A stretch of DNA of 64,000 nt from Arthrinium phaeospermum. Its lineage: Eukaryota; Ascomycota; Sordariomycetes; Amphisphaeriales; Apiosporaceae. The notes below the pieces were generated by a model. That model searched no databases, was not told the origin of the DNA, and worked only from the letters and a program-made list of their open reading frames with translations. A program made the position numbers and the translations under genes. Below are positions 30,996 through 41,692 of this stretch, piece after piece. Every line of letters begins with the position of its first letter. Position 1 is the stretch's first letter. Where the stretch lies: NCBI GenBank assembly GCA_006503535.1, contig QYRS01000013.1, positions 1,178,001-1,242,000 of the forward strand, in the 5' to 3' direction.

Positions 30996-31094
30996 AGGTC
31001 TGCCTGGGGCTCGAACCCAGAATCTCCTGATTAGAAGGGAATCTCTTGAAGAGTCGAATCGTAGTCAGACGCCTTACCATTGGGCCAACAGACC
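30996..31094 (-). tRNA. tRNA-Arg(ACG) with 27-nt intron
   Basis: Reading the minus strand, acceptor GGTCTGT pairs with GCAGACC (one G-T). The D-arm is GCCC-AATGGTAA-GGC, the anticodon arm TCTGA-CTACGA...A-TCAGG, and the T-arm CTGGG-TTCGAGC-CCCAG. The anticodon ACG reads CGU-type Arg codons after A34-to-inosine editing. A 27-nt intron lies at 31032-31058, after position 37, the canonical site for nuclear tRNA introns removed by the Sen endonuclease. The body closely follows the yeast tRNA-Arg(ACG) sequence pattern (TGGCCCAATGG; GTCTG.CTACGA). The internal A and B boxes are intact. Confidence 0.92.
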
Positions 31095-35400: not shown

Positions 35401-35934
35401 GTTCCCGCATGCTGAAAAGCCAGTGGCAAAAGCCCATCTGGGCCCTTTTCTTTTGCAAGCAACAGGCAACCTCTTCACGGACACCAGTATGGTGGAAAGA
35501 CTCATAAGCTTTACACTGTGGTGGGGGTTCGGTCTCGGCTTAGACGACGAGCTTCAAGCCGCAATTCGCGAATTTCTGGTAATGACACGAGACCAGACGA
35601 AAGAAGTCCCGACCGACGAGGGGCTGGGAATTCCGCCATTTGAAATTGTAGCTCGGTCAAATGAGTATTATTCCAAAAAGGCCAAGAGCGTTGAGTTCCT
35701 GATCGCGTGCTGTACGGAGTCGTGTAGTGGAAAACAACATTTCAGCACGTAGGAGATAGCTAGCATAGTATAAACGGTTCATGGAGCCGTGGAGAATCAG
35801 CTGGAGCATTGAAGCACACTGGTATAAGTTATTAAAGGGGGGTGGGCTGCATATTGACTTGACAACCATTGATAGGATGTCGCATAAGCTACATAATACC
35901 CAAAAACAGAACTTCGACCATCCCTAGGGCACGC
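32443..35934. other. gene-poor block with broken-looking reading frames
   Basis: No intact gene is recognised in 3.5 kb. Several stretches look like decayed coding sequence. At about 33010-33150 (plus), sensible peptides such as LHRREKYRWTVCELCAAAER and then EEVEAQRYKYRRVN lie in different frames. At about 33930-34060 (plus) there is NAHVVAHYLISDHCAQ before a GTATGT donor-like site. An 87-codon frame occupies 35489-35752 (plus). I cannot assign any to a family. No inverted repeats or transposase motifs were found by eye. Confidence 0.4.
34611..34811 (-). CDS. putative first exon of an unknown small protein
   Basis: ATG at 34811 opens 67 codons that end in phase 0 at a perfect GTAAGT donor (34610-34605). 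The peptide looks genuine: KNGRIGRTKLTSDPGWMFSY, then TTVYSIAANRLGNSWYLIIQ. I could not settle the acceptor; candidates are CGCAG near 34572 and GGCAG near 34480. No family is recognised. It may be a lone exon of a broken gene, in keeping with the surrounding block. Confidence 0.35.
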
Positions 35935-36100
35935 GCCCCCATGGCCTAATGGTAAGTCTACAAAAATGAGCCAACCATTTCCTAAGAAAAGAACGCTAAC
36001 GTTCCAATCACAGGTTAAGGCGCCGTTCTTATACATCTTTGAGCAATTAAATGTGTATGAAGACATGCGGAGATTGCGAGTTCGAGTCTCGCTGGGAGCA
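35935..36100 (+). tRNA. tRNA-Ile(TAT)-like gene with two introns, one spliceosomal-type
   Basis: Acceptor GCCCCCA (35935-35941) pairs with TGGGAGC (36093-36099) with one C-A mismatch at pair 3:70. D-stem GCCT pairs with AGGC. T-arm GCGAG-TTCGAGT-CTCGC is perfect. Anticodon stem CCGTT faces TGCGG (one wobble, one T-T at 31:39). The anticodon is TAT at 36030-36032. A 31-nt intron follows position 37 (36034-36064), and its ATGTGTA pairs with TATACAT around the anticodon, as in normal pre-tRNA. The D-loop is also split by 62 nt (35952-36013). Removing both leaves a 73-nt tRNA with A73. A box TGGCCTAATGG, a B box and a T5 terminator are present. Two stem mismatches leave open a pseudogene. Confidence 0.7.
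35952..36013 (+). other. GT-AG spliceosomal-type intron inside tRNA D-loop
   Basis: The insertion begins GTAAGT and ends CACAG. It carries GCTAAC (35995-36000) thirteen bases before the terminal AG, the same signals and length (62 nt) as mRNA introns elsewhere in this window. The flanks join as CCTAATG|GTTAAGGC, a textbook D-arm. The exact point of insertion is ambiguous by one shared G, as is usual for such junctions. Confidence 0.65.
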
Positions 36101-36104
36101 TCCA

Positions 36105-36109
36105 TTTTT
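36105..36109 (+). terminator. Pol III terminator of the tRNA-Ile-like gene
   Basis: Five T beginning five bases after the discriminator A73. A second T4 follows at about 36113-36116. Confidence 0.65.
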
Positions 36110-36520
36110 ATGCTTTTACTTTTTGAGAGATAGTCTTCCCTTCTGTACATTGTCTTTTTTGACATTTTCTCCTTCCTCTCTTTTTGGACGCTTCCTACTA
36201 CGCATCTAAGTTGGTGGTCATAGCATTGCGTGTTGCCAGGCAGGAAATCATTCACTTGCGCCATGCTGATTGCCTAAAGCTCCCCCGGAACGACGCTTGA
36301 GCCGATTGAAAGCCTCGGGATGTACCCCGCCAACCCTCGAACTACCGGAGAGGCCTGCACTGCTGGGGGTTTAGCTGCCAGACCACTCTAGCTACCCCAT
36401 CTCTCCTAAACAAGCTCATTACTCGAGATACTGTTCGACCAGCAAGCGCCCTGACAGCTGCCGGAAACCCAGTCCCTACATCATACTTCGATACCAATTA
36501 TTTCGTATTGTTACAACGAC
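36110..36520. other. short intergenic region before PEX19
   Basis: 411 nt. A tRNA-like stretch at about 36310-36400 was examined and not accepted. The rest should be the PEX19 promoter and leader. Confidence 0.5.
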
Positions 36521-37745
36521 ATGTCCGAAAGTCATGATGGCCCCGCGAACGGGGAAAGTGCCACGAAACCCGATGTCGCAACACCCGCCGAGCATGTGAC
36601 AGAGGCCGCGCCGGCATCGACAGCAGCCCCGACGACAACAGTCGACCCCGGCGACCCGGATGAAGACGACCTGGATGACTTGGACGACATGCTAGAAGAG
36701 TTCTCGGCTGCGAAAATCGACCCTAAGAAGACTGGCGCATCGGCACCTGGCGCGGCGAAGGCTGCGACGAATCCGACAACAACAGCCAAATCAGTACCAA
36801 CCGTTCCCACATTAGCTGGCGATGTGCCAGGCGCAGACCTGGACGAATTCTCCGAAGACGAATTCCAGAAGCAGTTACAAGCCGGCATGGTAGAGTTGAT
36901 GGGTGACCTGGACAAGAATGTAGGCGGGCAACCAACCCCCGCACCGAACTTACGTGACGACTGGTACTAACAAAGCACAGCCCGAGATGCAGGCCCAGTT
37001 CGAGACCATATTTAAGGAGCTAGGTGCCGCTGCTGCAGTGGACGGCGAGACACCGCCCGCGCCGGCGGCCGCAGCAACCTCGTCGTCGTCTGCCCCCAAG
37101 CAGGCCGCCGGCGGCAGTAGCGCCCCGAAGAGCGCCGACAAGATCGCGGCCGACCTCAGCGCCGACGCGACGTTCCAGGAGACCATCCGACGCACCATGG
37201 CGCGCATGCAGGAGTCGGGCGACCAGGCCACGGCCGCCGCCGCCGCTGAGGGGTCCGAGGAGGACTTCATGGCCGAGATGCTCAAGGCCATGAAGGATAT
37301 GCCCGGCGGCGGCACCGGCGAGGGGTCCGAGGAGGAATTCAGCAAGATGCTGATGGGCATGATGGAGCAGCTGACCAACAAGGAGATCCTGTACGAGCCG
37401 ATGAAGGAGCTCAGCGACAAGTACCCAGGCTGGCTCGAGAAGAACCGCGCGGGGCTCAGCGCGGACGACAAGACCAAGTACGAGGAGCAGTGCCGGCTGG
37501 TGCGGGAGATGGTGCAGAAGTTCGAGGAGCCCACGTACAAGGACGAGAACGTGGCGGATCGCGAGTACATTGTGGAGCGCATGCAAAAGGTAAATCCTTC
37601 ATCCGATGAGTGACGTATTGCGCACTATGCTGACTTGCAGATGCAGATGCAATCAAGTGGCTCACCGCCGGCTGACCTCGTGGGCGACATGCCCTCGGCT
37701 AAGGAGGTTCTCGACATGCCTGACGAATCATGTGCGCCCCAGTGA
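36521..37745 (+). CDS. pex19: PEX19 peroxisomal membrane-protein receptor
   Basis: Exons 36521-36919, 36981-37589 and 37641-37745 give 370 aa, with both introns in phase 0 (61 and 51 nt). The N-terminus is acidic and disordered (DPDEDDLDDLDDMLEEF), the PEX3-binding region. The helical cargo-binding domain covers about residues 180-335 (FMAEMLKAMKDMPGG; EILYEPMKELSDKYPGWLE; KFEEPTYKDENVADREYIVE). The last exon encodes the end of the domain and the C-terminal CAPQ, a CaaX farnesylation box as expected for PEX19. It is a cytosolic chaperone that brings membrane proteins to PEX3 on peroxisomes. Identification is secure from the farnesylation motif and domain order. Confidence 0.95.
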
Positions 37746-39826: not shown

Positions 39827-41692
39827 ATGAGGGCCCCCCCTTCGACGATCAATGCGCTGAGCCGCTTCGCAGCCCCCAACAGTGCTCGATGGACCTGCTC
39901 GACCTGTCGCAACCAGCTGCTGCCTCGGGTCAGCCCTGCACCGCGCTCATACAATAGACAATACTCCTCCGGCTCGGGCTATTCCGCCGGAGGCAACAGG
40001 CGCAACCCCCGGAATGGAAGAGCAAAGGCAAGCCTCTGGGCCGCTACCGCTACGGGCACTGCCGGCGTCGGCGCCCTGGCCTTTACCGACGACATCAAGC
40101 ATGGATATGAAGCCACAGAAAGAGCAGGCAGAGTAGCATCCACCTTGTTTATCTGCATTAACGAGTGAGTTGCTCCCTCGCTTGCTTGCCGTTCCAAGTA
40201 GGCACCAAACTAACTGTTCCTGCTTCGCAGCTATCGAACGACCCTCAAGAACCGCGATGCCCTTAACGACGAAGACGAGAAAAGTATGATACTGAGCGAA
40301 TGCCATAAGAGATGCTCCAGGAGAACTTTTAAAGTACTGGAGAAGAATGGAGGCATATTCATCAAGCTGGGCCAGCACCTGAGTGCCATGACCTATCTGC
40401 TTCCAGTCGAATGGACCGACACGTTTATACCCTTGCAGGACAGGTGTCCGGTCTCCTCGTTTGAGTCGATCGCCAAGATGTTCAGAGACGACACTGGCGA
40501 AGACCTGGAGGACTACTTCTCCGAGTTCTCTCGGGAACCCATAGGCGCAGCTTCGTTGGCGCAGGTGCATCTGGCTACTATAAAGGAGACCGGCCAGAAG
40601 GTCGCCGTCAAGGTGCAACATCCGACTTTGGCTCAGTGGGCCCCTCTAGACACGACCCTCACCAAGTTTACGTTCTCGACGCTGAAGAAGTGGTTCCCCG
40701 AGTACGACCTCGAGTGGCTGGCGTCCGAGATGGAGGTATCTTTGCCCCAGGAGCTGGACTTCCAACTGGAGGCGACCAATGCTATGAAGACCAAGCAACA
40801 TTTCGCCAACATATCTGGGTTGCCCCTGGTGATTCCCCAAGTCATCTGGGCCAAGAGGCGTATACTCGTCATGGCGAATGAGTCTGGACGCCGGCTCGAT
40901 GATCTAGAGTACATGGACGCAAATGGAATCGACCGAGACGAGGTTTCAGCAACCTTGGCGCGCATCTTCAACGAGATGATTTTTGGTAAGAATGCGCCTC
41001 TGCACTGCGATCCTCACGGAGGCAATATTGCGATCCGCAAGACGTCCCGTCGGGGCCCTGGCGGTGCTAATTTCGAGGTGGTTCTGTATGACCACGGTCT
41101 GTACCGCGACATTCCCGAGGTTCTGCGGCGCAACTACGCCAAGATGTGGTTGGCCGTCATCGATGGCGATATGGACCGCATGAAGCACTACGCGCACGAA
41201 GTAGCCGGGATCACCGAAGAGCAGTTCCCCTTGTTTGCCAGTGCCATCACTGGTCGCGACTACAGTGTCATTTCGTCGTCCATCATGAAGCCCCGGTCCA
41301 CGGGGGAGAAGAAAACAATGGGCGATGCTTTACAGGAGGGCCTCCTCACCGATTTGGTCCAACTGCTGGGCCAGGTTCCCCGAATCATGCTGCTCATCCT
41401 CAAGACGAACGACTTGACGCGAAGCCTGGACGAGAACTTGCAAACCCGCCAGGGCCCCCTGCGCAACTTCATGATCCTGGCGCGGTACTGCGCCCGCACC
41501 GTGCTGGAGGAGCAGATCGACCAGATCTGGGAACACAACGGCAGCCTACTGTGGCCCAGCAACGCCCTTCGATTCCTGGCAGCCTACGTGGGCTTCTTAC
41601 GGGTAGAGCTCAAGTTGGAAGTGTTTGAGATGTGGCTGGCGCTCAAGAGAGTAGTGGGCATCCAAACAAACTTTGGAGCAGCTGTATTGTAA
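39827..41692 (+). CDS. mcp2: mitochondrial ABC1/ADCK1-type kinase-like protein (MCP2-like)
   Basis: Exons 39827-40164 and 40231-41692 give 599 aa. The 66-nt intron (GTGAGT...CGCAG) joins IN|DYRTTLKNRD. The basic, Ser-rich N-terminus (STINALSRFAAPNSARW) looks like a mitochondrial presequence and is followed by one hydrophobic segment (AATATGTAGVGALAF). The ABC1 signature KxGQ is GGIFIKLGQHLSA; the Ala-rich loop is EPIGAASLAQVHLA; the lysine motif is VAVKVQHP. The catalytic loop is LHCDPHGGN, and the metal-binding motif is YDHGLYRD, i.e. DHG in place of DFG as in this subfamily. It matches yeast Mcp2/human ADCK1, inner-membrane proteins tied to mitochondrial lipid homeostasis and coenzyme Q distribution. 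Confidence 0.92.

Follow-up and report, generated by a model that had tools for sequence, protein, structure and literature searches.

Can a tRNA gene that already carries the intron removed by the tRNA splicing endonuclease also carry an intron of the mRNA type, and depend on the spliceosome for its maturation? The question is raised by a tRNA-Ile(TAT) gene on the plus strand at positions 35935-36100 of the window, by which we mean the whole 64-kb stretch of DNA that was analysed (G000:C13:1178001-1242000); the genome to which it belongs comprises 48.4 Mb in 19 contigs. The gene is interrupted twice, by a 62-nt insert in the D-loop and by a 31-nt anticodon intron. A sequence-only reading of the locus had arrived at these coordinates and lengths, and re-reading of the exon joins together with ARAGORN shows them to be correct. 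The parts of the locus, all on the plus strand, are the following.

35935..35951, +, exon 1 of tRNA-Ile(TAT), made up of the acceptor strand, T8-G9, the 5' strand of the D-stem and the D-loop to G18 (ARAGORN on the joined exons)
35942..35952, +, A box TGGCCTAATGG, contiguous in the DNA (sequence; putative promoter element)
35952..36013, +, D-loop insert of 62 nt, a spliceosomal-type intron GTAAGT...GCTAAC...CACAG (the sole GT-AG excision among the 52 that restore the D-arm)
35952..35957, +, putative 5' splice site GTAAGT (sequence; GTAAG compatible in the relative P0121)
35996..36000, +, branch-site motif CTAAC, within GCTAAC, 13 nt before the intron end (motif)
36009..36013, +, putative 3' splice site CACAG (sequence; AG compatible in P0121)
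36014..36033, +, exon 2, G19 to A37, with the anticodon TAT at 36030-36032 (sequence, ARAGORN)
36034..36064, +, canonical anticodon intron, 31 nt, after position 37 (ARAGORN intron)
36065..36100, +, exon 3, A38 to the discriminator A73 (sequence, ARAGORN)
36080..36088, +, B box core GTTCGAGTC, 138 nt from the start of the A box (sequence; putative promoter element)
36105..36109, +, T5, likely an RNA polymerase III terminator (sequence)

The D-loop insert separates G18 from G19, and since the first base of the intron is itself a G, the A box can still be read whole in the DNA. That the A box, the B box and the T5 terminator are all present had been reported before and is confirmed in the sequence. 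The second interruption is canonical and pairs with the anticodon, as also proposed: ARAGORN places an intron of 31 nt there, its outer helix has four of five pairs and the anticodon-intron helix three of four. The cloverleaf has two stem mismatches, C3:A70 and T31:T39, both noticed earlier and both real. Elsewhere in the window, an ordinary tRNA-Arg(TCT) gene with an anticodon intron (30996-31094, minus strand) gives the sole gathering-level Rfam match, and a coding sequence that we take to be PEX19-like starts at 36521, 421 nt downstream of the tRNA-Ile(TAT) gene on the same strand.

Exact removal of the insert restores a recognizable tRNA. With an intron limit of 200, ARAGORN finds nothing in the unspliced gene; after excision of the 62 nt it reads tRNA-Ile(tat), and the D-arm is clean. 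The comparison with and without 35952-36013, suggested along with the sequence-only reading, thus separates the two forms, Ile(tat) being read only after removal. With the limit raised to 300 and the whole window as input, the program forces a meaningless tRNA-Phe onto the unspliced stretch, and in cmscan the unspliced gene reaches 20.2 bits, short of the cut-off of 29, its 5' arm being put in the wrong place. Among 2070 excisions tried around the insert, ARAGORN reads Ile(tat) in 101, and in 52 of the 2070 all four pairs of the D-stem form and the loop, 7-11 nt long, contains GG. A single one of these 52 has GT...AG ends, and it is 35952-36013, the excision first proposed, so that the earlier claim of a perfect D-arm upon exact removal is borne out. 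Eight GT-AG excisions are possible in all; ARAGORN reads Ile(tat) in two of them, the second of which (35956-36019) lies outside the 52. The motif GTAAGTN{25,55}CTAACN{4,20}CAG has one match in the 64-kb window, which is the Ile insert, with 0.08 expected and at least one match in 7 of 100 shuffles. An Rfam scan of the window at gathering level gave no match to a group I or group II self-splicing intron family.

The Ile gene has company. Four more tRNA genes with D-loop inserts are found in the same genome, three for Ser(CGA) (L096, L097 and L098) and one for Pro(CGG) (L099). The searches used two patterns, of 22 rows each, in which CTAAC...AG is spaced from a B box as a D-loop would be; the first recovered the Ile gene and the second the three Ser genes and the Pro gene. 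Pattern rows are not enriched over reversed controls (22 versus 31 and 22 versus 35), and it is on structure, not on pattern counts, that the five genes rest. All 44 rows were read by eye over at most the first 80 bases each, and full loci were examined for 2 of the 22 rows of the first pattern and 4 of the 22 of the second. The total of five genes is a lower bound.

The inserts of L096, L097, L098 and L099 measure 60, 59, 60 and 58 nt and begin with GTTAGT, GTATGT, GTTAGT and GTAAGT, respectively; CTAAC lies 13 nt before the end of each Ser insert and 11 nt before the end of the Pro insert, and all end in AG. CTAAC and AG belonged to the pattern by which the four genes were found; the donors, and the cloverleaf obtained on exact removal, did not. 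After removal ARAGORN reads the expected anticodon in all five genes, namely Ser(cga) three times, Pro(cgg) once and Ile(tat); before removal it reads none of the five correctly and returns one false tRNA-Phe. With 35.1 and 35.2 bits, two of the Ser genes pass the cmscan cut-off and have their insert assigned to the D-loop; the third scores 18.1 bits with its 5' part misplaced, and the Pro gene is absent up to E 1.

The Ser inserts lie between G18 and G19, like that of the Ile gene, and the Pro insert one base later; the A box is whole in the DNA of the Ser genes too, and that of the Pro gene lies entirely inside exon 1. All five genes also carry an anticodon intron, of 8-31 nt, and all five have an A box and a B box, whose starts are 120-138 nt apart. 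A T-run follows within 10 nt in four genes, and in the Pro gene a T6 stands 20 nt downstream.

The three Ser copies allow conservation to be compared part by part. Their exons are identical at 81 of 81 positions, their inserts at 34-50 of 61-63 columns, and their upstream flanks at 31-37 of 84-99. This pattern, in which the exons stay the same while the insert drifts yet retains its splice signals, would be expected of a gene that works and is spliced. The Ser inserts are related to one another; those of the Ile, Ser and Pro genes look mutually unrelated by eye, which opposes a recent mobile intron (introner) as their source, as does a blastn search (skipping very common words) in which the 201-nt locus matches only itself in the genome. 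Two tRNA-His genes (L100, L101) were considered and set aside: their 5' leaders, which have CTAAC...CAG directly upstream of the gene, are conserved, and no conserved donor stands at a workable distance. Separately, two tRNA-like loci, L018 (C4:7118) and L028 (C7:2999514), share the same 58-nt match, have an anticodon that ARAGORN fails to read ('tRNA-??? (aa)'), and each lie about 7-8 kb from a contig end.

How far do the inserts resemble the mRNA introns of this fungus? For the features that define U2-type introns, GT...AG ends are found in five of five tRNA inserts (GTAAGT twice, GTTAGT twice, GTATGT once), CTAAC stands 11-13 nt before the end in five of five, and the lengths are 58-62 nt, against 66 nt in the one mRNA intron compared. 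This intron, placed by homology, interrupts the ABC1 gene in the window, runs GTGAGT...ACTAAC...CGCAG and has CTAAC 16 nt before its end; the ABC1-family protein (40286-41692) is 98% identical over 468 aa to a protein of Apiospora saccharicola, which places the fungus in or near that genus.

A closer parallel is offered by U6. The U6 gene L094 (C4:2470400-2470560) holds, between GAAGAT and TAGCATGG, a 62-nt intron GTAAGT...TTACTAAC...CACAG with CTAAC 10 nt before its end and the B-box-like GTTCAAATCC inside it; it is of the kind known from the mRNA-type intron of Schizosaccharomyces pombe U6. U6 is a Pol III product (PMC10484740), and since its gene here carries an mRNA-type intron, it is likely that at least one Pol III transcript is already spliced in this fungus. 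The same source describes the U6 intron as thought to stem from reverse splicing, being near the catalytic bases (PMC10484740). The tRNA genes differ from this precedent in their hosts: U6 is a part of the spliceosome, whereas here the hosts are tRNAs that also carry an anticodon intron. The genome also has a divergent, intronless second gene resembling U6 (L095, G000:C11:298368-298480; 55.8 bits), which could be a U6 variant, a pseudogene or a minor copy.

A relative of the Ile locus was reached through an antisense reading frame (35797-36264, minus strand), which, used as a query, found one protein, P0121, of 125 aa, on a 9,899-base contig. The DNA of P0121 is known only through back-translation of the predicted protein, and its matches are accordingly compatibilities, not read sequence. 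Written as degenerate DNA, P0121 has a single place that accommodates the whole 88 nt between the 3' splice site and the end of the tRNA, with 29 of 29 residues identical over the 3' tRNA part, anticodon intron included. The motif TGGNCTAATGGTAAG also fits at one place only, which gives an insert of 63 nt at the same site. GT, GTAAG and AG are compatible with the back-translation, and within the 375 nt CTAAC fits at 2 places, of which one is 13 nt short of the insert end, and CTGAC at 6. An orthologue without the insert, or without GT-AG ends, had been named as an outcome that would count against an intron; the one relative found fits the insert, both ends and the branch motif at the level of back-translation. 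C3 and A70 are both compatible as well, so that the C3:A70 mismatch could be a long-standing one that does no harm. In the 5' exon the query and P0121 run in different frames, with an apparent one-base shift on either side; therefore the tRNA, rather than an antisense protein, appears to be what is kept.

Other routes to relatives gave less. A chimeric query of several reading frames returned only P0121 again, and a D-loop/anticodon pattern aimed at fungal relatives gave 8 loci in genome contigs and 9 in viral contigs, all of them bacterial or from the viral collection. The Ser pattern had 0 matches in the viral contig collection. One viral-collection contig carries a locus (L088) that by eye is a tRNA-Ile(TAT) with no intron, sharing the D-loop GGTTAAGGC.

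Neither blastn, nor anticodon-loop/B-box patterns, nor a stem script, nor ARAGORN, nor reading by eye brought up a second tRNA-Ile(TAT) gene; an intact TAT set elsewhere, another outcome named in advance as adverse, was not found within the limits of the patterns. In blastn, the joined exons and the locus match only the locus itself in the genome. Patterns combining a TTATA anticodon loop with a B box gave 2, 23, 30, 10 and 10 rows (75 in total, the Ile locus included), and presuppose A37, C or T at 32, a B box of the form GTTCRANYC and introns no longer than about 60 nt. The stem-pairing script and ARAGORN were applied to the loci of the first 65 rows, and the last 10 rows were judged by eye; three of these 10 are on contig C19, which carries a tRNA cluster as a mitochondrial contig would. 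The script gave eight candidates with scores of 14-15 and is not decisive alone, since the Ile locus (L064), at 15, ties with L065 and L015. L065 was rejected as a TAT gene, being a tRNA-Val by ARAGORN with TTATA at its 5' end, as was L015, in which ARAGORN sees no tRNA; L012 and L013 were dropped as tRNAs because they score below gathering level. What decided was ARAGORN, by which 0 of 76 loci are Ile(tat), together with inspection by eye, in which only the Ile locus has a D-arm before TTATA. A search with RF00005 scored 63 of 1391 candidates and is not a census.

ATA codons are in use, making up 7 of the 32 Ile codons of the ABC1 gene. A tRNA-Ile(AAT) with inosine might also read ATA, and a sole TAT gene therefore need not be essential.

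On this evidence we put at roughly 0.85 the probability that the D-loop insert is removed by the spliceosome from a Pol III precursor, before the predicted removal of the 31-nt anticodon intron by the SEN endonuclease. Pol III would be recruited by the A box and the B box and would stop at the T-run; the spliceosome would take out the D-loop intron in the nucleus and thereby create the D-arm; the SEN endonuclease would then remove the anticodon intron, the order of the two steps being the one we favor. A precursor in need of both the spliceosome and the Sen endonuclease is what the sequence-only reading had proposed, and the sister genes and the intron-bearing U6 now strengthen it.

Three other accounts of the insert have to be weighed against spliceosomal removal from a Pol III transcript. 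Spliceosomal splicing is normally tied to Pol II, and this favors a tRNA made also, or only, within a Pol II transcript, spliced like an mRNA and cut out by RNase P and RNase Z; the PEX19-like coding start 421 nt downstream on the same strand points the same way. Against such a route stand the A box, the B box and the T5, all in place, and the lack in the insert of a run of four T, as Pol III needs, although 15942 of 18268 stretches of equal length lack one too. U6, a Pol III product (PMC10484740), shows the same build in this genome, and we hold the Pol II route to be improbable. The gene might instead be a dead copy, an old tRNA gene into which a GT-AG-like stretch was inserted and from which nothing removes it. 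This would suit the two stem mismatches, and it accords with the statement in PMC4090602 that short D- or T-arm insertions in eukaryotes mostly affect a single gene among many synonymous ones and are presumed to mark pseudogenes. It sits badly with several observations: no other TAT copy was found, the three insert-bearing Ser copies keep 81 of 81 exon positions, P0121 fits a tRNA with an insert at the same site, and a GTNNGT donor stands at the cloverleaf-restoring site in five of five inserts. The possibility of a pseudogene, which the sequence-only reading had attached to the mismatches, is thus weakened by the failure to find another TAT gene and by the compatibility of C3 and A70 with P0121, and to a dead copy we give a very small chance.

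Removal of the D-loop insert by the SEN endonuclease, as is thought to happen to archaeal and red algal introns in the D-arm, has precedent in that D-arm tRNA introns exist in archaea, a red alga and nucleomorphs (PMC4090602), and the Ile gene already has one intron of the SEN type. The pairing at the cuts speaks against it. Across the five genes the outer helix has 0-2 of five pairs at the D-loop cuts versus 4-5 of five at the anticodon cuts, and removal by SEN alone is for this reason unlikely; the inner helix, with 1-2 of four versus 1-3 of four, does not discriminate. SEN removal would also leave GTAAGT, CTAAC and CACAG without a reason, and the chance we allow it is slighter still than that of a dead copy.

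The insert can also be compared with other kinds of tRNA intron. Archaeal, nucleomorph and Cyanidioschyzon introns likewise occur in the tRNA D-arm, sometimes beside an anticodon intron; the archaeal and red algal ones are consistent with motifs of the bulge-helix-bulge type and a splicing endonuclease, and those of a nucleomorph are 3-24 nt long (PMC4090602). By contrast, the D-loop inserts described here are 58-62 nt long, carry mRNA splice signals and have no bulge-helix-bulge motif. Compared with canonical eukaryotic introns after position 37, of which the same genes carry one each (8-31 nt), the D-loop insert is at another place and has other signals. Non-canonical tRNA introns are rare in eukaryotes, nucleomorphs and a red alga aside, according to PMC4090602, and tRNA splicing is described as spliceosome-independent in PMC13149111. 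Among the matches listed in a literature search of partial coverage, no title or opening of an abstract mentions tRNA genes with spliceosomal introns, and the string 'spliceosom' is absent from the available parts of PMC4090602 and PMC8450103. What is new here, judged from the genome sequence, is the class of host RNA in which a predicted spliceosomal intron sits.

The wider claim is probable, if somewhat less so than the reading of the single gene: at least five nuclear genes for three isoacceptors would form a class of tRNA unable to mature without the spliceosome, each spliced twice by two unrelated machines, with inserts inside or just after G18-G19 that leave the A box whole. The class is possibly widespread in this fungal order, unseen because its members would pass as 'missing' isoacceptors. 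Finders that expect one anticodon intron miss or misread these genes, and standard tRNA finders can in this way miss whole isoacceptors. The end of the A box is an insertion site at which an intron leaves the box whole. If the genes work, two splicing machines act on one small RNA, a tRNA becomes available on which to test whether the spliceosome requires Pol II and a cap, and translation of AUA, UCG and CCG in this fungus would depend partly on the spliceosome.
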